From positions 62,001-126,000 of IMG/VR virus record IMGVR_UViG_3300045125_000064: a stretch of DNA of 64,000 nt; one strand, 5' to 3'. Position numbers and translations under genes: made by a program. Shown here one piece after another: positions 13,168-62,001 of the stretch. Source of the DNA: a virus. Every line of letters starts with the position of its first letter. The first letter of the stretch is position 1. Below the pieces are notes generated by a model, which worked only from the letters and a program-made list of their open reading frames with translations, had not been told where the DNA came from and made no database searches.

Positions 13168-13175
13168 CTATTTAT
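13168..13175 (+). promoter_or_regulatory. Putative late promoter motif CTATTTAT (copy 3)
   Basis: CTATTTAT, extended to CTATTTATAA, lies 43 nt upstream of the tail sheath start in a 90-nt gap. No flanking inverted repeat reaches the ribosome site (AGGAGTTAGG). It probably drives the sheath-tube-baseplate genes. Confidence 0.5.
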
Positions 13176-13218
13176 AACTAGATTTTAGAATATCTACGAA
13201 ATAAATAGGAGTTAGGTA

Positions 13219-16043
13219 ATGCCAGCATCACAATTCAATTTTTCTTCTCCAGGTGTGGAAATACATGAGCTAGATCAATCAATTGTTCCAGGAAAAGTGG
13301 AGCAAAAGGGTCCAATTATCATTGGTCTTTCAGAGAGAGGCCCAGCTTTTCAACCAATCAAGGTTTCATCATTTGATGAATTCTCACAAATATTTGGTAA
13401 TACAGTTCCAGGTGGTCAATCAGGTGATGTTTGGCGAGATGGAAACTATACAGCGCCATTATATGCTCCATATGCAATGGAAAGCTGGTTGAAAAATGGC
13501 GAAACTGCAACCTTTATCAAACTTCTAGGTTCTGAACATTCAGAAGCAACAATTGGTGGTGTATCTGGTTGGAAAGCTGGAACACTAACTGCTGATTCAA
13601 ATGGTGGTGCTTATGGTCTATTCTTATTCCCAAGTGGCGCAGTTGAAACTTCAACTGGTTCGTTGACAGCAGTATTTTATTGCTCTGATTCATATGCTCA
13701 ATTGAGTTCATCAAGAGGACAATCATCTGCAAAATTCTTTGAATCAGATGCAAATGGTAATTTTACTCTTGTTATTAAGAGTGGTTCTGCGGAAGAAAGA
13801 AAACTTTTTCAATGAATCCTTCTGATCCATATTTTATCAGAAGGTTTTTAACACCAATCCACAATCAACAAATTTAAATATTGTTTCTTCAGAATTGCAG
13901 AAAAAATACTGGCTTGGTGAAACATTTGAAAATGATTTCAGAGATAATATGAAAGCAGATGCAGCTTCATATACAGGTTCAAAATTTTATGGCATTATTC
14001 TTGGTCTAAAGAGCAACACCGTTTCATTTGAGGATCACACTGGAAAACAATATACAGATTATGCAAAAACTGGATGGATAATTGCTCAAGACACCGTTTC
14101 TGGATCAAATCCAACATATTCTCCAGAAACAGCAAAAAGATTGTTTAGATTTGTAGATAGAGGCTCAGGAGATTGGCTACAATCTCATGTCAAGGTTTCA
14201 ATTGCAAATATCAGACTTCCACAAAATGAAGTTGAGGATCCTTGGGCAACATTTGACGTTGTATTAAGAAAAATTGATGATACTGATGCTGCTGTTAAAA
14301 TTGTTGAAAGATTTAACGCATGCAATCTAAATCCATCTTCAGAGAACTATATTGTTGCAAGAATTGGCAACAAAAATATGGAATATTCTGAATCAAAAAT
14401 AGATGGGATGAAGTCGGTGAATTCACTAATAAATCAAAGTTTATAACTGTTGAAGTAAATCCAGAATTGGAATCATCACCAGATTCAGCATTATATCCAT
14501 TTGGTTGTTTAGGTCCAATTAAAGTAAAAAATACAGTGGTAACAGATTATACTGCTGCTCCTGGAATGTCTGGCTGGATTAGAGCTTCTGGAAGTATTGG
14601 AGGTGTTTCTTTTACCGGTTCTTACATTTCCACTGCAAGCGTATCAGTTCCAGCTTCAACTTGTTTTGCTTGGCCAAGTATGAAAACTAGAACAACATCA
14701 CAAATTGATGGTTTGTCAACACCAAAACAAGCATTTTTGGTGTTTGGAATGGTTCTTCATATTCCTCAACATCATTTAACAAAAATATTATTGAATTTGT
14801 TAGAGAAACAGCAGGAGGAATGGATTGCCATTCCGCTGCTTCTGGAACTATAGGGAATACTCTTGATTATTCATGGATGTTCTCTTTAGATAATCTTGTT
14901 GAGGATACATCATCTGTTTCAAAGGTCTATACATATTCTTCAACTGGTAAAACAGCAGGTTCATCAGTAACAGCCAATAGTGGCTCAAATGAATTGCTAA
15001 AAAGAGGCATTTGCAATTTCACCACAGTTTTCTATGGTGGTTCAAATGGTTGGAATATTACAGAATCTCTTCCTGTTGCGAATAGAACAATTGCAGAAGG
15101 TTCAACTGAGAAAACAAATTATGTGTTTAATACATACAAGAAAGCTTTAGATATGATTTCAGATAAGGAAGAAGTTCAAGGTAACTTGATTTCAATTCCA
15201 GGTCTAACAAACAAAGCTTTGACCGGAAGAGTTCTTGATATTGCTCAAAATAGAGAAGATTGTTTAGCAGTTATTGATTTGGAAAAATCATTCTACCCAA
15301 TCCATGAAGCAAGAGCAGAATCTTTGAATCCAAATTCTGGCGAATATGAAAGAGGCAATGCAGAATCTGTTTCAGATTCAGTTCTTTCAAGAGCAATAGA
15401 TAATACTTATGGTTGTGCATACTTCCCATGGGTTCAAATAAGAGATAAACAGACAAGCAAACTTTGCTGGGTTCCAGCATCAATCGTTGCTCTTGGCGCA
15501 ATGGCTTATACTGATAAGGTTCAATATCCTTGGTTCGTTCCAGCAGGAATGAATAGAGGCAATCTATCTGAGTCATCAGTTGGTCTAAATGTTGTTGATA
15601 TTGCAAGAAAGTTAAACAAGGCAGACAGAGATTTGTTACAGAAGTCAAATATTAATCCAATTGCTAAGTTCCCCAAAGAGGGCTTGGTTATCTGGGGACA
15701 AAAGACTCTAACACCAAAATCTTCAGCACTTAACAGAGTTAATGTGAGAAGGCTTGCTCTATTTGTCAAAGAACAAGCAGAAACAATTTTGACTGGATTC
15801 TTATTTGAGCCAAATGTTGAAGAAACTTGGGATAAAGTAAGAAGAAAACTAAATCCAATGCTTGATGATATTAAGGCAAAAATGGGATTTGAAGATGTCA
15901 AACTAATTCTTGACTCAACAACTACAACTCCAGATCTGGTTGATCAAAATGTAATGTATGCAAAGATCTTCATTAAGCCAGCAAAGGCAATTGAAGGAAT
16001 CGGTGTTGATTTAGTCATAGTAAATTCTGGTGCGTCATTCTAA
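13219..16043 (+). CDS. Contractile tail sheath protein, T4 gp18-like (several frameshifts)
   Basis: About 940 residues, longer than T4 gp18 (659). The N-terminus (FSSPGVEIHELDQS...GPIIIGLSERGPAFQPI) is the classic sheath start. The frame breaks around 13806, 13850, 14420 and 14760-14850 and resumes each time with sensible sequence (NPSDPYFIRR; NTNPQSTNLNIVSSELQKKY; DFRDNMKADAASYTGS). The C-terminal domain is unmistakable: RRLALFVKEQAETILTGFLF, FEPNVEETWDKVRRKLNP, then the terminal FIKPAKAIEGIGVDLVIVNS GASF. The C-terminal half (14820-16043) is uninterrupted. It forms the outer tube that contracts and drives the inner tube into the host. Confidence 0.9.
13818..13849 (+). terminator. Terminator-like hairpin inside the sheath gene
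   Basis: CCTTCTGAT (13818-13826) pairs perfectly with ATCAGAAGG (13836-13844) around a 9 nt loop and is followed by TTTTT. The sequence appears coding (SMNPSDPYFIRR) and lies where the sheath frame breaks twice. It may be a real attenuator or a chance hairpin that provoked sequence errors. Confidence 0.3.
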
Positions 16044-18331: not shown

Positions 18332-20415
18332 ATGGCAACAAGTGTTCATGAAGTAGAAATTCTTAGAAAATTACATAGTGCTCTTAAGAGTGCTCATGGT
18401 AGTGGTTCAGGAAGAACTCTAAAAGATGTTGCAAAAATTGTCCAAAATAATCCAGATATTGCAAATGCTTTAGGAATAAAGCAGCCTCAATTGGTACGAT
18501 TTAAATCAGTTGATGAAATTGAAAAAGCATTACAAATAAAAGTTGGTTCTTTTAAGGTACAAAACGCAGATGAATTATTTGCTGCAAGAAATTTTGATTC
18601 AAAAACAGGAAAACCTTTTGATATACCAGATATTGTAAGAGGTGAAAAACAATCTGATTATGCAGCCTCAGCACAACAAAATGTTAAATCAGTTGGAAAT
18701 ACTGTAAGCAATGTGACAACTTCAGCATTAGATTTTGCTGGATATAATGACACTACAATTGCAAAACTTGGTGGTGGTCAATTTTTGACAGATACAATGT
18801 CAAGTCTTGGGAAACTTCTTCCTGATATTGATACCAAAAAATTTGGTAAGATTGCAGAATTTATGGAAAAATTTGGTGGCAATAAATTTGCAGATTTCTT
18901 GACAAGTCAATTTGGATCATTTGGTAATGTTGCCTCCACAATGATAAAAGCTTCAACTGTTGCTGTTAAAGGATATGAAGATTTAAGAAAGCAGATATTA
19001 AAAACAACAAATGCAAATAATGATTTTTTCTTCTCATTGTTTAACATGCAATCAGAATATGCAAAGTCTGTTGGTATTTCAAGAAAAGAATTATTTGTTG
19101 AATATGATGAATTATCTAATCAACTTGCTATGAGAGTTGACAAGGATGCAGATAAGAGATTAAGAAATCTTGCTCTTGAATCACAAAAGTTGAAAAAACT
19201 TGGTGTTACAAATACAAACGATTTATATCAGACTTTGAACACACAATTCAATATAATGGATGATAAAATGCATGTTGTTTCAAGAAGATTGATTCAATAT
19301 GCAACAGAAACATCCCAATCGAATGATAAAGTATTTAAAGATTTCAAAGAATCAATGGATAAATTTGTTTCAATCTTTGATGTTGATGAACTTCAAAAGA
19401 ATTTTTCAACTTTTCAAAATCTTTCAAGAAAAACAGGAATTTCGATTGGAAGTCTTGCTGATCAAGTTATGAAGTTTGATGATCTTTCTCAAGGATTTGA
19501 GGCGGGATCAAATCTTAATGTTGTTCTTTCTCAGCTTGGAAGCAATTTTGATACAATGTATATGACTCAGATTGAAGATCCAGCACAGAGAATGGAATAT
19601 CTTTATGATAGATTGTCTGCTGCAAGAGATGGTTTTGAGAAGTTGAATGGTGTTGCAAAGCGTTCAATGTTTAATCAACTTGTTCAATCCACAGGCATGA
19701 GTCAACAAGATATTAAGGCTCTATTGACCTCAGATAAAGGAAAAGTATCTGATATATTTGCAAGATCAAGAGCAGGTCTTGGAATGGAAGAAATATCTTC
19801 TGCAAATCTTGATCAAAAATTGTCAAACATAAAAACTGTTGACACAGCAGATAATATTCCCGCAGCGATTATTCAATCTGGTATGGGAATCCAGAAAGCA
19901 ATGATGGAAGCAGATGATAAATTGATGACCAAATTGATAAATCAAATGGATCAAAACTTTTCTTCTTCCACAAGACAGCTTTCAATTGATATGATGAAAC
20001 ATGCAAATGAAATGTCTTTGACAAGAGAGCCAGGATATGACAAATTCATCAAGAAATTTGAGGATATTATTGAACGAGTTGAGAAAACGAGCCTGAGATC
20101 TGCACCAGACAGAAAAGACCTATACAAAGATATCCAAGATGGCTCTGGAGGGGTCAAATCTCCTTCAGGAAGTGAGAAAATGGTTGGGGCGATTGATGCT
20201 GTGGGTCAGAAATTCGACAAAGTTGTGGAGGCTGTAAAGTCTCCCCTGCAAGTTTATTCTCCAACTCTTGAGGGTTCAATGAAGGAACTTGCAACAGCTT
20301 TTAACGCTCTTGCTGTTGCAATGAATCAGGAAAGAGTTTGCAAATTTCTTCAACTCCATCTATAGCAAAAACTTTGGCAGATCCAACAGGGTATTCAAGG
20401 CATCAAGCAGTTTAA
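18332..20415 (+). CDS. Tape-measure / tail-length-like protein (frameshift near 3' end)
   Basis: About 694 residues, almost wholly helical and rich in Lys, Asp, Ser and Gln. It has a central hydrophobic Gly/Ala stretch (GSFGNVASTMIKASTVAVKG) and long amphipathic helices (DADKRLRNLALESQKLKKL), the usual make-up of a tape measure. The first frame ends at 20365; a one-base shift near 20325 gives GKSLQISSTPSIAKTLADP and an end at TAA 20413-20415. It lies after the tube and gp26-like genes and before baseplate genes, where a gp29-type protein belongs. It is short for a tape measure of a large tail, so another hub protein is possible. Confidence 0.55.
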
Positions 20416-31667: not shown

Positions 31668-33519
31668 ATGGATATAAGTCAAAGGGTGTTGTCAGATTTA
31701 ATTATTTATTTAAAATATTCTAAGTATTTGCCTGATAAACAGAGAAGAGAAACTTGGGAAGAATTGGTAGATAGAAATAAAGCAATGCATATCAAAAAAT
31801 TTCCTCAATTGAAGGAAGAAATTGAATGGGCATATGGTTTTGTTTATGATAAGAAAGTTCTGCCATCAATGAGATCAATGCAGTTTGCTGGAAAACCAAT
31901 TGAAGTAAATCCAGCAAGATTATATAACTGTGCATTTATGAATATTGATGATGTGAGAGGCGTTTTCTGAGACAATGTTCTTGCTTCTTTCTGGTTGTGG
32001 AGTTGGATATTCTGTTCAAAAACATCATGTTGAACAACTTCCAGAAATTAGAAAACCAAATTCAAGGAATAGAAGATATCTCATTGGGGATAGCATCGAA
32101 GGTTGGGCAGATGCAGTCAAGGCATTATTTTTGTCTTATTTTGAAGGAACATCAAAATTAACTTTTGACTTCTCAGATATTAGGCCAAAGGGACACAGTT
32201 GATAACTTCTGGTGGCAAAGCTCCAGGACCACAACCACTCAAAGAGTGTCTATTCCACATTGAATCAATATTAGAACAAAAAGAAAATGGTGATAAACTA
32301 AAACCAATTGAAGTTTATGACATTCTCTGTCATATTGCTGATGCTGTTTTGGCTGGTGGAATAAGAAGATCTGCAACCATTGCACTATTCAGAGTGATGA
32401 TGAAGAAATGTTGACTTGTAAGACTGGTGATTGGTGGGAAGAAAATCCACAAGAGGAGAGATCAAATAATTCTGCTGTTCTTCTAAGACATAAATTAACA
32501 AAAGATGTATTTAAAAACTTGTGGAATTGGTTAAGAATGGTGGTTCTGGTGAGCCAGGATTATTCTTGACAAATAATAAAGAAATTGGCGCAAATCCTTG
32601 TGTGGAAATCTCACTAAAATCATTAGGTTTTTGTAATCTAGTGGAAACCAATGTAAGCGATTTGACAACTCAAGAAGAATACGAAGAAAGATGCAGAGCA
32701 GCAGCATTTATTGCAACTTTGCAAGCAAGCTATACAGATTTCCATTATCTAAGAGATGGATGGAAGAGAACAGCGGAGAAAGAAGCTTTAATTGGTGTTT
32801 CTATGACTGGCATCGCTTCTGGAAATGTTCTTAAACTAGATATGACAAAAGCAGCGAAGATCGTTGCTGAAACGAATAAGAGAGTTGCACAATTAATTGG
32901 AATAAACCCAGCAGCAAGAACTACAACATGCAAACCAAGTGGAACAAGTTCAATTGTTCTTGGAACATCATCTGGAATTCATGCTTGGCATAATGATTAT
33001 TATATCAGAAGAGTTAGAATTGGCAAAAATGAGGCGATATATCATCATCTATTTCTGAACCATTCAGAATTGGTAAAAGATGAATATTTTAAACCACATT
33101 TACAAGCTGTTATTGAAGTTCCACAAAAGGCTCCAGAAGGAGCAACTTTGAGAACAGAATCTGCAATCAGTCTTCTGGAAAGAGTTAAGAAGGTTTACAA
33201 TGAATGGGTTCTTCCTGGTCATAATAGAGGCGACAACACCAACAACATTTCTTGCACAGTGACGATCAAGGATGGTGAATGGGTTGACGTGGGACAGTGG
33301 ATGTGGGATAATAGATCATCATATACAGGATTGTCAGTTTTGCCATATGATTCAGGAACATATGTTCAAGCACCTTTTGAAGATTGTACAAAAGAACAAT
33401 TTGAAGAGGCATTTAAGAATCTGTCAAATATTGATTTAACACAAGTTGTTGAATTTGAGGATTTGACAGATTTGCAAGGAGAGGCAGCTTGTAGTGCAGG
33501 AGGATGCACTGTAGTATAA
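31668..33519 (+). CDS. nrdJ: Class II (adenosylcobalamin-dependent) ribonucleotide reductase (frameshifted in 5' half)
   Basis: About 617 residues resembling the monomeric B12-dependent triphosphate reductase type. Landmarks: MRSMQFAGKPIEVNPARLYN followed by CAFMNIDD (first redox Cys), FLLLSGCGVGYSVQK, AVLAGGIRRSATIALF, NPCVEISLKSLGFCNLVETN (radical-site Cys), TTTCKPSGTSSIVLGTSSGI, and a C-terminal CSAGGC Cys pair. It makes deoxynucleotides from ribonucleotides. No R2-type radical subunit is needed, and none follows. Breaks near 31965, 32200, 32395 and 32515 are single-base shifts; 32521-33519 is intact. Start chosen at 31668 after ATAGGAG. An endonuclease with a hairpin-controlled start follows. 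Confidence 0.82.
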
Positions 33520-33524
33520 AATGT

Positions 33525-33568
33525 CTATTTCGCAAACGAACACTATTTATAGTAATGCGAAATAGGAG
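33525..33568 (+). promoter_or_regulatory. Shine-Dalgarno-hiding hairpin with CTATTTAT in its loop (HNH endonuclease)
   Basis: CTATTTCGCA (33525-33534) pairs perfectly with TGCGAAATAG (33556-33565). The loop carries CTATTTAT at 33543-33550. The 3' arm runs into AGGAG (33564-33568), 8 nt before the ATG at 33577. The 5' arm starts 5 nt after the reductase stop codon. Read-through RNA would fold and hide the ribosome site; RNA starting at the motif would lack the 5' arm. Confidence 0.65.
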
Positions 33569-33576
33569 AAAATAAA

Positions 33577-34135
33577 ATGGCAGAATTGATAGATTTAACA
33601 GGAAAAGTATTTCATAATTTGACAGTTTTGGGTAGAGCGTCTTCAAATAGGCAGGGCAGTTCAACTTGGTTGTGTAAATGTGTCTGCGGAGCAGAAAAGG
33701 TTGTATCCTCAGATCATTTAACAAGGAAAAAATCACCTGTTGAGTCCTGCGGATGCCTTTCAATAAGACAAGGGCCAAGACATTCTCAATGGACTGGATG
33801 TGGCGATATTTCGGGAAACTGGTGGTATAATCATGTTCTTAGAGAGAGAAAACAGACTACTAGAGCTAGAATTCCTGTAGAAATAACAATTCAAGATGCT
33901 TGGGATTTGTTTCTAAGGCAAGAAAAAATGTGCTTTAAGCGGCTTAGACATTGTGATAAGCAATACATCAAAATATTCAACAGCGTCAATTGATAGAATT
34001 GATAGTTCTAAGGGATATATTCTTGGAAATATTCAGTGGGTTCACAAAGATGTTAATTTTATGAAAAGAACGTACTCTCAAGAATATTTTGTTAAAATGT
34101 GTAAATTGATTACAGAAAATTGTGAAATTAAGTAA
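33577..34135 (+). CDS. HNH homing endonuclease (one frameshift)
   Basis: About 185 residues. The N-terminal part has a cysteine cluster (WLCKCVCGAEK...CGC) and the phrase GKVFHNLTVLGR, common in the DNA-binding N-termini of phage HNH homing enzymes. The frame shifts near 33940 and continues LDIVISNTSKYSTASIDRID then SSKGYILGNIQWVHKDVNFM, the typical HNH core (ASIDRIDSSKGY..GNIQWVH). It is a free-standing mobile endonuclease following the ribonucleotide reductase, a common insertion site for such genes. Expression appears to be late-only because of the hairpin upstream. Confidence 0.8.
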
Positions 34136-35765: not shown

Positions 35766-36253
35766 AGAAACTGGTGAAATTGATTGGGCGGCTTCAGCAA
35801 GAGAATTAGATAATTATCGAGTTGTTAAGATGATTCTTGAATCTTGCCAGATTGGATCAACAGTTATGAATGGATTTGGATTAAAAGGCACCATATAAAT
35901 CCTTTAATCCAAACCATCCAAGCTGTTTGTGGGCAGCAGAGAGTTTTACAAATTATATGAATCTTATGCTTCATCTTGAAGCAATGCTGGAAGAATATAC
36001 AGAAAGATTCGAAAAAACTCATAAATGCCAAGCAGTTTATAGTCAATTGTTAGAAATGACAGATTCAAATTTATTCCCACAATTTGAATCAACGCCATTA
36101 AAAATGGCAATGCCAGATGAGTTTAAAATAGAAGGTAATCCAGTTAAATCATATCGAGATTACTATTCAACAAAAGAAAGAATTCGTTATCCAAAAAATA
36201 AAATACCTGAATGGTTTCTTGCGAGAAGAAATTTGCCATTCCAAACTATTTAA
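35737..36253 (+). CDS. Conserved phage protein of the KMILESCQ...AMPDE family (one frameshift)
   Basis: About 170 residues. The first frame gives ASARELDNYRVVKMILESCQ, then shifts near 35890 to SFNPNHPSCLWAAESFTNYM, EEYTERFEKTHKCQA, LKMAMPDEFK and KIPEWFL. This combination (KMI.E..Q, NHP..LW..ES, EYT.R..K.HK, AMPDE, YRDYY, PEWF) recurs in uncharacterised proteins of many large phages. The conserved Lys, Glu, His and Asp residues suggest an enzyme. I recall no proven function. Confidence 0.55.
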
Positions 36254-36276
36254 GGTATGAATGGAGATAAGAACAA

Positions 36277-36750
36277 ATGAATCAACTTTTAAACTCAAAA
36301 TATTCAAAGAACTGGAAGAAATATCTAACTGAACAAAATGCAATGGGTGCTGGCGCAGTCGAAGGTTCGCCAATTGGCGCTCATGATAATGATGATTTTC
36401 AGCTTGATGAAGTTGACAACTTTAATGCATTGGAAGGCGCAGATGATTTTGAGGAAAATGAGCATGAACCAGAATGGTGGGAAGACCCAGAAGATGATGA
36501 TCTAACTATGACTCATGAAGATTTTGATGATGAAGAAGATTTTGAAGATCCTGATTCGTTGGAAGAACCTTGGGATAAACAACATGATTTTGGATGGTCA
36601 GATGAAGATGATGAGGAAGATGAATTTGACGATGAATTTGGATTGGATGATGTAACAAACGGAATTGAAGATGAACCTTCATTGGAAGATCCATATCATG
36701 CTGACAATCCAGATGATAATATGCATTGGCCAGGTAAAAGATATTGGTAA
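36277..36750 (+). CDS. Hyperacidic protein
   Basis: An intact 157-residue protein; roughly half of residues 35-150 are Asp or Glu (HEDFDDEEDFEDPDSLEEPW). The N-terminus is different: MNQLLNSKYSKNWKKYLTEQ is basic and resembles the start of the next gene (YNWKNHLLNEQ). The extreme charge could mimic DNA or bind basic partners, and the N-terminal tag could be a sorting signal. Both ideas are speculative. It ends 3 bp before the kinase-like gene. Confidence 0.55.
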   Translation: MNQLLNSKYSKNWKKYLTEQNAMGAGAVEGSPIGAHDNDDFQLDEVDNFNALEGADDFEENEHEPEWWEDPEDDDLTMTHEDFDDEEDFEDPDSLEEPWDKQHDFGWSDEDDEEDEFDDEFGLDDVTNGIEDEPSLEDPYHADNPDDNMHWPGKRYW

Positions 36751-47284: not shown

Positions 47285-47330
47285 TCTCCCATTGCAAATC
47301 TAAAAACTATTTAGTTCTAGCAATGGGAGA
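47285..47330 (+). promoter_or_regulatory. Shine-Dalgarno-hiding hairpin with CTATTTAG in its loop
   Basis: TCTCCCATTGC (47285-47295) pairs perfectly with GCAATGGGAGA (47320-47330), 11 bp. The 24 nt loop holds CTATTTAG at 47307-47314. The ribosome site GGGAG (47326-47329 region) lies inside the 3' arm, 8 nt before the ATG at 47339. The 5' arm starts 6 nt after the polymerase stop codon, so polymerase read-through RNA would keep the next gene silent. Confidence 0.68.
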
Positions 47331-47338
47331 CTCTAAAG

Positions 47339-48060
47339 ATGAATAGATTTAAAGTAAAAAAAGTAATGGCTGGAGTTATTGATAATGTTGGCTTAACTCA
47401 AGCAGATCCAAATGAAACTTCGTTTTCAAATTTATATGATTATGGACTATATCAAAGTGGTTCTGTAAATGCAGATTTTACAAATGGTGATTTGTTAACA
47501 AACACAGAAAAATCTGCATTGGCAACTTCATGGTATACTGCATTGGAAACAGCAGCTTCAGCAGCTTGGCAGCAACTCCAAGTGCTTCAGCAATCAATCC
47601 AACAAGCAGCTATTTTTATTATCTTCCATCAGAAGCTGGGACTCATACAACAGCAGAAGTTGCTCTTTCATCTTCAACTGGAAGAAAAAATTTGGTTGTT
47701 CTATCAGAAAACGGTTTCTCAGCTAAAAAGCCAGGTTGGTATGAAGTTTCAGCATCAGATACCTCAATTACTTTTAATTCACATTTAACTGGCTCATATA
47801 CTGGTTCACGGATTCAGATCTCATACGCTTTTATGGGAGTTTCTGGTTCAACAGATGCAGATAAATTGGAATTCTATGTCAATGCTAATGCAGTTCCTTC
47901 AAGTTATGAAGCATTTGCTTTGAATGATACAATTGTGTCTGGTGCAATGGTTATTTCAACTGCATCAGTGACAGGTGGTGTTGAAATTAGATTTACAACA
48001 GCAACTGCACCAGATTCATCTTGGAATTCAGGTGTTTATGTTAAGGTTTCTCTTGTGTAA
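47339..48060 (+). CDS. Virion-type protein under hairpin/late control (one frameshift)
   Basis: About 240 residues: MNRFKVKKVMAGVIDNVGLT and LYDYGLYQSGSVNADFTNGD in the first frame, then after a shift near 47570 SASAINPTSSYFYYLPSEAG, KNLVVLSENGFSAKKPGWYE, SDTSITFNSHLTGSYTGSRI and GGVEIRFTTATAPDSSWNSG, ending YVKVSLV. It is rich in Ser, Thr, Gly and aromatic residues with beta-strand spacing, like capsid-decoration or tail-tip proteins, and unlike the replication genes around it. The late-type element fits a virion role. A promoter and terminator pair follows. Confidence 0.55.
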
Positions 48061-49633: not shown

Positions 49634-49661
49634 TCTCCTACACTATTTATTATGTAGGAGA
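49634..49661 (+). promoter_or_regulatory. Shine-Dalgarno-hiding hairpin with CTATTTAT as its loop (LAGLIDADG endonuclease)
   Basis: TCTCCTACA (49634-49642) pairs perfectly with TGTAGGAGA (49653-49661). The 10 nt loop is CTATTTATTA, so the motif is almost the whole loop. AGGAG (49656-49660) is inside the 3' arm, 7 nt before ATG 49668. This is the tightest of the four hairpins and would block translation from dUTPase read-through RNA. Confidence 0.7.
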
Positions 49662-49667
49662 CAAAAA

Positions 49668-50752
49668 ATGCGCAAAGAATGGACACAAGAAGAATGTCAA
49701 TATTTAATTGATAATTATAAAACTAAAGAATACACAGAAATTGCCAAAGTTTTAGGAAGGACAGAAAGCTCGGTTGGCAAAAAAGCCATTAAGCTAAAAC
49801 TAATGAAAAAGAACGAGGAAATATGCTGGCAAGATTGGCAATTAGATTTTTTGAAAGAAAACTATGGAAAAATTTCAGCAAAAGAAATATCTGAGAAGAT
49901 CAATAAAACAAAAGGAACAGTAATTGCTAGAGCCGCTATCCTTGGCTTAGGGATCCAAGTGGAAGAAAATATAAATTAAATGAATCCTATTTTGATGTTT
50001 GGAGTGCCGATATGGCATATTTTTTTGGGTTTTGGATAGCTGATGGATATTTGATTAAACACAAGTCTAGTTCCAGTATTGGTATCGGAGTCCACAAAAA
50101 GGACAGATATATTTTGGAAAAATTTAACAGTCTGGTTGAGTCAGAAAATACGGTTAAAGATCGAAAGAATAGAGAATTTTCTGAAGTGCTTTAGCATTCA
50201 AAAAAAATGGTAGAATCTATAGAGCGTATTGGTGGGATCCATAGAAAATCACTTGTTATAGAATTCCCACAAATTCCAGAACCTTTTTTGTTCGACTTTA
50301 TAAGGGGATTCTACGACGGGGATGGAACAATAGGGATTAAACTATATGAGGGAGCAAGAGGCAACACATACAATTTACGATGTGGTTTCTGCGGTGGGTT
50401 GCCATTCATTAGTAAATTGAAGGAAATTCTGGAGTTCCAGATTCCGTGGATCAATCAGGCAAAACTTAGTATAAGTAAGCAAAAAAATAAGAAAAATATA
50501 GATTTTTGTTCTTTTGTAGTATGGTCATTTCAGCGCCAACAGTTATGGATAAAATTTATGAACGAGTAAATAATGGAGAAACAGATCTTTACCTAAAAAA
50601 GAAAATATGAAATATACCAAAAATATAAAGAATATTTAAAAACTGGCCTTCCAACATTTAATGTTTTAAGCAATGATGAGTCACTATATACAGAAGGAAC
50701 AGAATCAAAAGAGGCCAAGGTGGATTTGGTAACAGATGTAATAAAATCATAA
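49668..50752 (+). CDS. LAGLIDADG homing endonuclease with N-terminal helix-turn-helix domains (frameshifted)
   Basis: About 360 residues. The N-terminus has two similar DNA-binding repeats: WTQEECQYLIDNYKTKEYTE...ESSVGKKAIKLKL and WQDWQLDFLKENYGKISAKE...KGTVIARAAILGL. After a shift near 49975, SADMAYFFGFWIADGYLIKH is the first LAGLIDADG helix, and FDFIRGFYDGDGTIGIKLYE the second. The C-terminus, after another shift, reads ERVNNGETDLYLKRKYEIYQ and ends at TAA 50750-50752. Breaks near 49975, 50190 and 50525-50610 fit single-base errors. It follows dUTPase as a free-standing mobile gene. Confidence 0.78.
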
Positions 50753-54633: not shown

Positions 54634-56266
54634 TTTTAGAGAAGGAACAACTTTTAGAAACAATTAGAAATGTGTGCTTAACATATAAGAATATAGTTGG
54701 TGCAACCCTTGGGCCAAAAGGTCAGCATGTGATCATGGGGGAAGAAAATCCCTATATTACCAAGGACGGAATCACGGTGGCAAAAGCACTGATTGATTCT
54801 CTGTCAACTCCCCAGGAAAAGGCAATTGCAAAATTGTATGACACAAGCATCCCAAAAGACAATGGATGAAGCTGGGGATGGGACAACTTCAACAATTATC
54901 TTTTTAACAGAGATTTTGGAGCAGTTATATCAAGAAACAAGATATGCTGGAACCATTTCAACAACAAAATTGAAATCTGGAATTGATGATGCAATTGAAC
55001 AGATTGTTCAATATTTTGAGCACAATAAAGAACAAATTGAAACAGAAGAAGATCTAAAGAACATTTCTTTAATTTCAACAAATGGTGATGAAAAATTATC
55101 CAATTTGATTGTTGAAGCATTCTCCGCAGTTGGTAGAGATGGTTCAATTGTTATTGAAGAATCAAAGTCAGCAAATATCACAACTTTGGAAGTGAAAGAA
55201 GGTTATACTTTTGAATCTGGATATGTTGCTCAAGCCTTCTCAAATGTTGAAGGACAAGCAATTGCAAGACACAATGGAGCTTTCGTTCTTGTTTGTGATG
55301 AAGTGATAAGTGATATTATCAAAGTTGCTCATGTGATATCTTTGCTAATTAAGCAGAATAAACCACTTGTCATTATTGCAGATGATATAACTGGTGCAGC
55401 ACTTGCTGCATTGATTTTGACAAATGAAAAGGCAAAGAAAGGAATTGCAGACAACCTCAGAGTTTTTGTGTGTTAAAGCACCATCATTTGGTGTGGAAAG
55501 ATATGAATATCTAAAGGATATTGCTGTTGCAACAGGAGCAAAATATTTCTCAGCAACAAATGGGAATAAACTTGAAAAGTTTGCACCAGCAGACTTGGGT
55601 TTTGTTGAATTTGTTGAATGTGGCAAATATTACACAACATTGGTTGGCGGAAAAGCAAAACAAGATGAATTGAAATCAAGAATTGATGAATTACAATCTT
55701 TGATTGAACAAGAACCATCAGAAGGTGCCTGTAAATTGCTTATGAAGAGAATGAACAAACTAAATTCGGCAGTAGCTGTTATTAAGGTTGGAGGGAATAC
55801 TCATTCAGAACTCATTGAGGTTAAACACAGAGTTGAAGATGCTTTATGCGCTTTGAGAACATCAATCAAATCTGGTTTTCATGCTGGTGGTGGTCTAACT
55901 GCTGCAAGGGCTGGATATAATGCATCTATGTTCAGAACTTCTGAAGGTGAATCTTATGATGCTGGATATAATGCAATTTGTAATGCAATGTCGGCACAAT
56001 TTTGGCATCTTGTTAACAACTCTTGGTCTTGATACAAATCTATTGCTAGATGGTGTTGAGATTGAAGGAAAGAGATTGTTATTTGGTTTAGTAGAATTCT
56101 TTGAAGAAGAGTGGGGAATTGACTTTGCAACAGAAAAGGAATTGATAATATGAGAGCTGTTGGAATTGTTGAACCTTTACAGGTTTCTGTTTCCAGCATA
56201 AAAAATGCAGCTTCAGCAGCTTTTCCATTGTTTTACTCCGCAGCACTCTTAATTAAACAAGATTAA
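54630..56266 (+). CDS. GroEL-like group I chaperonin (frameshifted)
   Basis: About 545 residues, the usual GroEL length. Landmarks: VGATLGPKGQHVIMGEENPY, ITKDGITVAKALI, DEAGDGTTSTIIFLTEI (ATP-site GDGTTT type), SLISTNGDEKLSNLIVEAFS, VGRDGSIVIEESKSANITTL, the apical GYTFESGYVAQAF, KAPSFGVERYEYLKDIAVAT, AVIKVGGNTHSELIEVKHRV, EDALCALRTSIKSGF, HAGGG, and the C-terminus VGIVEPLQVSVSSIKNAASA. It ends at TAA 56264-56266. Breaks near 54845, 55470, 56005 and 56145 fit single-base errors. No GroES gene is seen nearby. It probably helps fold phage capsid or tail proteins. Confidence 0.88.
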
Positions 56267-56298
56267 ACTATTTATATAGAAATCTTGTTTAATAGGAG
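56252..56298 (+). promoter_or_regulatory. 13-bp Shine-Dalgarno-flanking hairpin with CTATTTAT in its loop
   Basis: ATTAAACAAGATT (56252-56264) pairs perfectly with AATCTTGTTTAAT (56281-56293), the longest of the four stems. The 16 nt loop holds CTATTTAT at 56268-56275. AGGAG (56294-56298) abuts the stem, and ATG follows at 56307. The 5' arm is made of the last codons of the chaperonin gene, so terminating ribosomes could melt it. Confidence 0.68.
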
Positions 56299-56306
56299 AC
56301 TGAACA

Positions 56307-56631
56307 ATGGCGAATATCAATGAACAATTAATGTTGGAAGAACTTCAATCTATTAATAGAAAATTGGATTTAGTTCATACACTTGATACAAAGATGAAGG
56401 CATTAAAGTAAGTCAAGCAAGTACAGAAGAAGAAATAAAGAAATTAGAATCCAAATTGAATATTATTAATGATCCAGATAAAGGTCTTTATTCAAGAATT
56501 AATGCATTGGAAATTTGGAAAAAGAAATTGAAGATAAATTGGCAAGATACAGAAGCTGGATTAAATGGCTTGTCACAACAACTGTTGTTGGAGCAGCCAC
56601 AGCAATTTATGAATTTATAACAAGAAAGTAA
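56307..56631 (+). CDS. Small coiled-coil protein with C-terminal membrane helix (frameshifted)
   Basis: About 107 residues: MANINEQLMLEELQSINRKL, then after a shift near 56395 IKVSQASTEEEIKKLESKLN, and after another near 56520 RSWIKWLVTTTVVGAATAIY, one membrane helix, ending EFITRK at TAA 56629-56631. A long coiled coil plus a C-terminal anchor is the layout of pinholin- or anti-holin-like and some virion proteins. Hairpin and late motif upstream suggest strictly late expression, as a lysis or virion protein would need. Confidence 0.5.
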
Positions 56632-61992: not shown

Positions 61993-62001
61993 CGAGGAAT
62001 A

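Follow-up and report, generated by a model that had tools for sequence, protein, structure and literature searches.

The DNA analyzed here comprises positions 62001 to 126000 of a 172,865-bp virus record (G000 in the comparisons below), and this 64-kb stretch is referred to as the window. Within it, a ribonucleotide reductase (RNR) large-chain gene is followed by a hairpin and then by an HNH endonuclease gene (Table 1). An inverted-repeat search found the hairpin arms, CTATTTCGCA and TGCGAAATAG, to be 10 nt each, 100% complementary and spaced 21 nt apart. In the minimum-energy fold, T33524 adds a U-G pair, yielding an 11-bp stem that reaches the third base of the Shine-Dalgarno sequence AGGAG. 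The loop contains CTATTTAT at positions 33543 to 33550. An earlier note on this DNA had described a hairpin that flanks this motif and whose 3' arm enters AGGAG, and both features were confirmed.

Table 1 Features of the window discussed in the text (window coordinates unless marked as genome coordinates)
Feature	Position	Strand	Remarks
RNR large-chain gene, C-terminal part	32521-33519	+	Directly upstream of the hairpin; earlier part split into several frames
5' arm CTATTTCGCA	33525-33534	+	Inverted-repeat search; 5 nt 3' of the RNR stop codon
Probable late-promoter motif ACTATTTAT	33542-33550	+	In the hairpin loop, 35 nt 5' of the ATG
3' arm TGCGAAATAG	33556-33565	+	Covers the first two bases of Shine-Dalgarno AGGAG (33564-33568)
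HNH endonuclease gene, N-terminal part	33577-33993	+	Start codon ATG at 33577; phrog_374; about 115 aa homologous to the intact genes of relatives
HNH endonuclease gene, C-terminal part	33953-34135	+	Different frame; phrog_3322 (HNH core) and further HNH families
Weak version, 6-bp stem CCATTC/GAATGG around motif	36236-36264	+	Precedes ORF 36277-36750; small predicted switch effect
11-bp hairpin TCTCCCATTGC/GCAATGGGAGA	47285-47330	+	ACTATTTA in loop; precedes ORF 47339-47788, no family
9-bp hairpin TCTCCTACA/TGTAGGAGA around motif	49634-49661	+	Precedes ORF 49668-49979, a Myb/HTH protein resembling DNA-binding parts of HNH enzymes
13-bp hairpin ATTAAACAAGATT/AATCTTGTTTAAT around motif	56252-56293	+	AGGAG adjoins the stem; precedes ORF at 56307
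Tail-sheath late motif serving as 5' arm, CTATTTAT/ATAAATAG	13168-13208	+	Weak predicted switch
RNR gene, frame-broken	31668-33519
Tail sheath gene, frame-broken	13219-16043
HNH gene, frame-broken	33577-34135
gp55-like gene, frame-broken	19418-19925 (genome)

The gene behind the hairpin was identified as a putative homing endonuclease through phrog_374, phrog_3322 and its intact orthologues; a Pfam search with these HNH proteins gave no match. Its two halves correspond to the N- and C-terminal parts of one protein of 184 to 187 aa, which is intact in the relatives L286, L288 and L289. The reading frame is lost near position 33940, so that the gene may be nonfunctional or the assembly may contain an error. 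Conserved genes are frequently broken into multiple frames across the record, while their homologues are intact. Since RNR, sheath and HNH are all split here, whereas the RNR genes of relatives are single frames of 618 to 630 codons, the split frames are likely indel errors of assembly rather than true gene loss.

Judging from its sequence, the record belongs to an uncultured clade of far-T4 phages, distant from all cultured phages, and its placement in the T4 superfamily is based on the sheath, portal and baseplate families. In GenBank, its portal and sheath proteins come closest to those of Microcystis phage Mel-JY01 and Flavobacterium phage immuto, at 33 to 39% identity, and a nucleotide search against GenBank phages gave 0 matches. 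Relatives were obtained from IMG/VR, first by the pattern of hairpin plus motif and later by portal alignment. Many of the 37 pattern matches had no ORF behind them and were excluded as chance or terminators. The portal search yielded more than 580 relatives, while IMG/VR scans with a single sheath or portal-C sequence recovered none.

The motif in the loop shows a strong strand bias. ACTATTTA occurs 19 times on the plus strand of the 172,865-bp record and 0 times on the minus strand. Across 816 kb from 80 portal-bearing relatives, it is found 164 times on the virion-gene strand versus 2 times on the opposite strand, and in these relatives it is the commonest 8-mer within 50 nt upstream of Shine-Dalgarno-led ORFs. 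The bias is repeated in 10 of the 10 other contigs longer than 40 kb that were examined (G+C content, 37 to 46%), and the motif stands upstream of sheath, neck and other virion genes. CTATTTAT by itself is not enriched in the window (7 observed versus 4.7 expected). In addition, remote similarity points to a gp55-type late sigma factor (phrog_234) in seven of 10 long clade contigs (E values, 1.6e-8 to 2e-3), and the gp55-like gene of G001 is orthologous to two overlapping ORFs of this record (Table 1). We regard ACTATTTA(T) as the probable late promoter of the clade. Because it does not match the T4 consensus TATAAATA, it is classed on its sequence as a counterpart of the T4 late promoter and not as the T4 late promoter proper. 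Like the gp55-dependent promoter of T4, it is a short TA-rich single element approximately 25 to 50 nt 5' of virion-gene starts, in a clade with a gp55-type sigma factor. However, its sequence differs from that of T4, it is strand-specific, and its start sites are presumed.

As a further candidate, TATAAATA on the opposite strand of the loop (33544-33551) was considered as the functional motif and rejected: it is broken in other loops that keep ACTATTTA, which itself has the 19:0 bias. Within the window, TATAAATA has no coding-strand pattern, with 8 of 10 occurrences on the minus strand. Separately, the virion genes of Mel-JY01 (L095) and immuto (L096) carry [AC]TATTTAT 25 to 45 nt 5' of the start, which suggests a broader far-T4 family of late promoters.

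A 121-nt fold of the region contains the stem, although its total energy is unremarkable (z = -0.57). When only the upstream part was shuffled and the motif, Shine-Dalgarno and downstream sequence were kept fixed, approximately 1% of shuffles matched the hiding of the Shine-Dalgarno and AUG (p = 0.010). On long transcripts the stem would pair the ribosome-binding and start region, with the Shine-Dalgarno covered in part. Opening the stretch from Shine-Dalgarno to AUG is predicted to cost 4.9 kcal/mol on such a transcript but 0.5 kcal/mol on one that begins after the motif. This is the weakest of the strong hairpins described below. Repression may be partial, since the stem has just 11 bp and leaves the last two bases of AGGAG unpaired.

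From these features we favour, with a probability of about 0.85, a switch of the T4 I-TevI/mobE type that restricts translation of the HNH gene to late infection. Late-only control had also been suggested in the earlier note, and it is the best reading, with the loop motif as the probable late promoter. Read-through transcripts from RNR would contain both arms and fold into the hairpin, partly burying the HNH Shine-Dalgarno. Late in infection, RNA polymerase with the gp55-like sigma factor would initiate at ACTATTTAT. Given its position in the loop, this promoter would exclude the 5' arm from its transcript, so the ribosome site would be accessible and the endonuclease would be produced. We infer from the sequence where transcription starts, when the gene is expressed and how far it is repressed.

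The device itself is already known. A hairpin hiding the ribosome-binding site, combined with a late promoter, has been described in reviews for I-TevI, I-TevII, I-TevIII and segB of T4 and for mobE of Aeromonas phage Aeh1, and the same control acts on soc, e and other late genes within early transcripts of T4 (PMC2988022, PMC3014915). The mobE gene is an HNH gene inside the RNR gene nrdA (PMC2988022). It shares with the present locus an HNH endonuclease gene at RNR, a hairpin over the ribosome-binding site of the early transcript and late transcripts that escape it (here predicted). However, the HNH gene lies behind RNR here and not inside it, the late-promoter sequence differs (ACTATTTA here, TATAAATA in T4), the arms are unrelated, and the phage is an uncultured far-T4 phage. 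The locus also resembles T4 I-TevI (in the td intron), I-TevII, I-TevIII and segB, where a late promoter and a hairpin over the ribosome-binding site precede an endonuclease gene inside an early or middle unit, although the I-Tev genes are located in introns. That two unrelated endonuclease families share the switch, as the earlier note stressed, is true of HNH and GIY-YIG genes in this phage but is not new, since both families already have the device in T4.

Hairpins of the same design recur in this phage and its clade. Among 123 distinct clade sites with motif, Shine-Dalgarno and ORF, 12 have a helix of at least 9 bp around the Shine-Dalgarno, against about 1 expected from shuffles. Seven of these 12 belong to this phage, all at 95 to 145 kb of its genome, in the half with RNR, NAMPT (gene at genome positions 133615-135039) and other non-virion genes. 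The three other hairpins mentioned in the earlier note were thus an undercount: in and beyond the window there are six or more further hairpins whose loop contains or adjoins the motif. The genes behind the seven encode the HNH protein at 33577, a Myb/HTH protein, a GIY-YIG protein with NUMOD domains, a second HNH protein and three proteins without a family match (ORFs at 47339 and 56307 and at genome position 140590). For the GIY-YIG gene, the predicted opening energy from Shine-Dalgarno to AUG falls from 19.8 to 0.5 kcal/mol. No GIY-YIG homologues were found in an IMG/VR search or in 20 clade contigs, where an empty result is little proof; the GIY-YIG gene of G031 has the motif, and its hairpin is unconvincing.

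The strength of the predicted switch follows the genome map. Late sites in the virion half (9.6, 57, 64 and 75 kb) carry the motif without a strong hairpin, with early-minus-late opening energies of 1.0 to 3.4 kcal/mol, whereas seven of the nine sites beyond 83 kb reach 4.9 to 23.9 kcal/mol (Fisher p = 0.02). Across the clade, nine endonuclease-like sites exceed 110 other late sites in the predicted early/late difference in ribosome-site opening energy (p = 3e-5). The genes marked by hairpins in this phage are late genes inside early and middle blocks, with or without an endonuclease product; several of the genes under the proposed control would be homing-endonuclease genes. Since hairpins also precede family-less genes and strong ones are lacking in the virion block, we tie the switch to nested late genes and not to endonucleases as such. 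The idea of a convergent taming of mobile genes is only partly right. The switch and the shared pairing with differing arms are supported, but the device is not endonuclease-specific, as it also precedes the three family-less genes and a holin-like gene of a relative. The same logic applies to the non-endonuclease late genes e (lysozyme) and soc of T4, to which the family-less genes and the G001 holin-like gene can be likened, although the genes and the promoter motif differ. The holin-like genes G001:100320 and G002:29425 both have the late motif, and that of G001 also has a strong Shine-Dalgarno hairpin, in parallel to T4 gene e.

The site behind RNR could be compared with and without the endonuclease. 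HNH relatives were collected by protein similarity only, blind to hairpins. In L286, L288 and L289, an HNH orthologue lies directly behind RNR, with syntenic neighbours in common with this record, and the three proteins are approximately 72% identical to each other. In L289, the Shine-Dalgarno and AUG are covered by a 20-bp stem that has a single bulge and ACTATTTA in its loop, and the predicted opening energy falls from 24.6 to 4.7 kcal/mol. In L286, ACTATTTA lies inside an outer stem that is interrupted, TTTTTCTTATTGG/CCAATAAGGAGGG; the perfect-helix scan was blind to this hairpin because of the interruption and the long loop. L288 has a stem over the AUG with the variant motif ACTACTTA, not significant alone (p = 0.13), and the predicted early/late difference is small with a longer leader (1.8 kcal/mol). 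A fifth HNH gene, in L292, where RNR was not found upstream, follows a stem of 10 perfect base pairs, TTTTGATGCT/AGCATCAAAA, whose loop contains ACTATTTA. As the arms of orthologues cannot be aligned, pairing was assessed by shuffle tests, with p-values of 0.010 (G000), 0.040 (L286), 0.13 (L288), 0.003 (L289) and 0.030 (L292). Their Fisher combination gives p = 1.3e-4 for the four RNR-adjacent sites and, calculated by hand, approximately 0.001 for the three whose discovery did not depend on the hairpin. The arms are unrelated among orthologous HNH genes, and each time the motif is enclosed and the ribosome site or start codon is hidden. The earlier statement that the pairing and not the arm sequence is shared thus holds even for orthologues at the same site, and the outcome named as refuting it, arms not conserved as pairs, was not obtained.

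Relatives without HNH behind RNR (G017, L056, L059, L063, L230, G014 and L015) lack the HNH-type hairpin there. The other refuting outcome named in the earlier note, a hairpin that belongs to the RNR 3' end in such relatives, was thus not obtained either. In G017, L056, L059 and L063, RNR is followed by a terminator-like stem, then ACTATTTAT, then another gene, and L232 likewise has a terminator-like stem and late motif between RNR and the next gene. L230 has a spacer of 29 nt after RNR and G014 one of 301 nt, while in L015 a different gene has its start codon covered by a 13-bp stem, with the motif at the margin of this stem. Because relatives without HNH still show the motif after RNR, often with a terminator-like stem, the early/late boundary behind RNR appears on sequence grounds to predate the endonuclease or to be independent of it, and insulation at this place has more than one solution.

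This comparison bears on the question of whether the hairpin travels with the endonuclease. The switch might be real but part of a mobile cassette, imported together with the endonuclease, an account of its origin that is compatible with the late-only mechanism. The orthologous HNH genes do have the hairpin, which is missing after RNR in relatives without HNH. However, the orthologues' arms are unrelated, so that no single cassette hairpin has been inherited unchanged. The late promoter, often after a terminator-like stem, is present behind RNR even without HNH, and non-endonuclease genes have the same hairpins. We consider this origin rather unlikely.

Much less probably, the hairpin ends the RNR transcript as an intrinsic terminator, or as a processing or stability element, without any translation switch. 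Its start 5 nt past the RNR stop codon would suit such a role, as would the terminator-like stems that precede the late motif between RNR and the next gene in L056, L059, L063 and L232. A terminator is nevertheless disfavoured by the missing U-run: the terminator scan, which looked for a GC-rich stem with a U-run, was negative. Moreover, the loop is 21 nt long and contains the promoter motif, and the 3' arm runs into the Shine-Dalgarno, as it does in the unrelated hairpins of the HNH orthologues and the GIY-YIG gene.

The endonuclease could also bind the arms as DNA, either as an operator or as a site related to cleavage, in an autorepression like that of I-TevI, with the pairing as a by-product. 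Operators often take the form of inverted repeats around a promoter, and I-TevI, and probably I-TevII and I-TevIII, bind operators overlapping their own promoters (PMC2988022). However, HNH proteins that are approximately 72% identical (L286, L288 and L289) have unrelated arm sequences, and the GIY-YIG and other genes of one genome are preceded by the same design. Such a role is very unlikely, since the arms vary while the protein stays conserved. A functionless chance inverted repeat in AT-rich DNA is just as improbable, for although the region's z of -0.57 and the single-site p of 0.01 would accommodate it, two results would not: the 123 late sites include 12 strong hairpins where about 1 is expected, and the hairpin recurs at orthologues gathered regardless of hairpins.

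With the late-only switch as the preferred reading, the apparent novelty lies in the clade, in its late-promoter sequence and in the comparison of replaced arms at one RNR site. The analysis extends a mode of regulation from a few T4-like model phages to a large clade without a cultured close member and gives this clade a probable late-promoter sequence. Regulation appears to follow genomic position rather than gene family. More tentatively, and with the odds somewhat against it, we propose that late genes landing in an early operon, endonucleases above all, must become insulated, whether by a terminator ahead of the promoter or by a ribosome-site hairpin around it. At the RNR-adjacent site the hairpin would have been rebuilt in each lineage out of unrelated sequence, so that regulation would be selected by position and re-evolving and would not travel with the mobile gene. 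The junction of RNR and HNH offers a natural comparison, between four lineages with the endonuclease and four unrelated stems and lineages without it that have a terminator or no insulator, and allows a direct question: do phages tame mobile genes, or do mobile genes bring their own control?

Endonuclease-like genes of the HNH or GIY-YIG type also lie directly 3' of RNR in L296, L310, L327-L331, L338, L341, L021 and L041. Since such genes adjoin RNR in many other phages, its 3' end seems to be targeted repeatedly by homing. What separates RNR from the endonuclease gene in L341 is a terminator-like stem rather than a Shine-Dalgarno hairpin. In L338 (758-2608), RNR is broken by approximately 860 nt near query residue 40, possibly by an intron, an intein or a second endonuclease insert.

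Two further observations concern genes beyond the window. An adenylosuccinate-synthetase-like gene at genome positions 155394-156476 matches phrog_1211 (2-aminoadenylosuccinate synthetase family), a hint that the phage may have 2-aminoadenine DNA. The late protein encoded at genome position 140590 has a lysine-rich N terminus, M-K-x-T-K-x-x-L-K-x-x-I-K-E-E, in common with late proteins of L110, G021 (9048) and G002 (35666). This N terminus resembles the propeptides that target T4 internal proteins to the capsid, and it may include a protease site.
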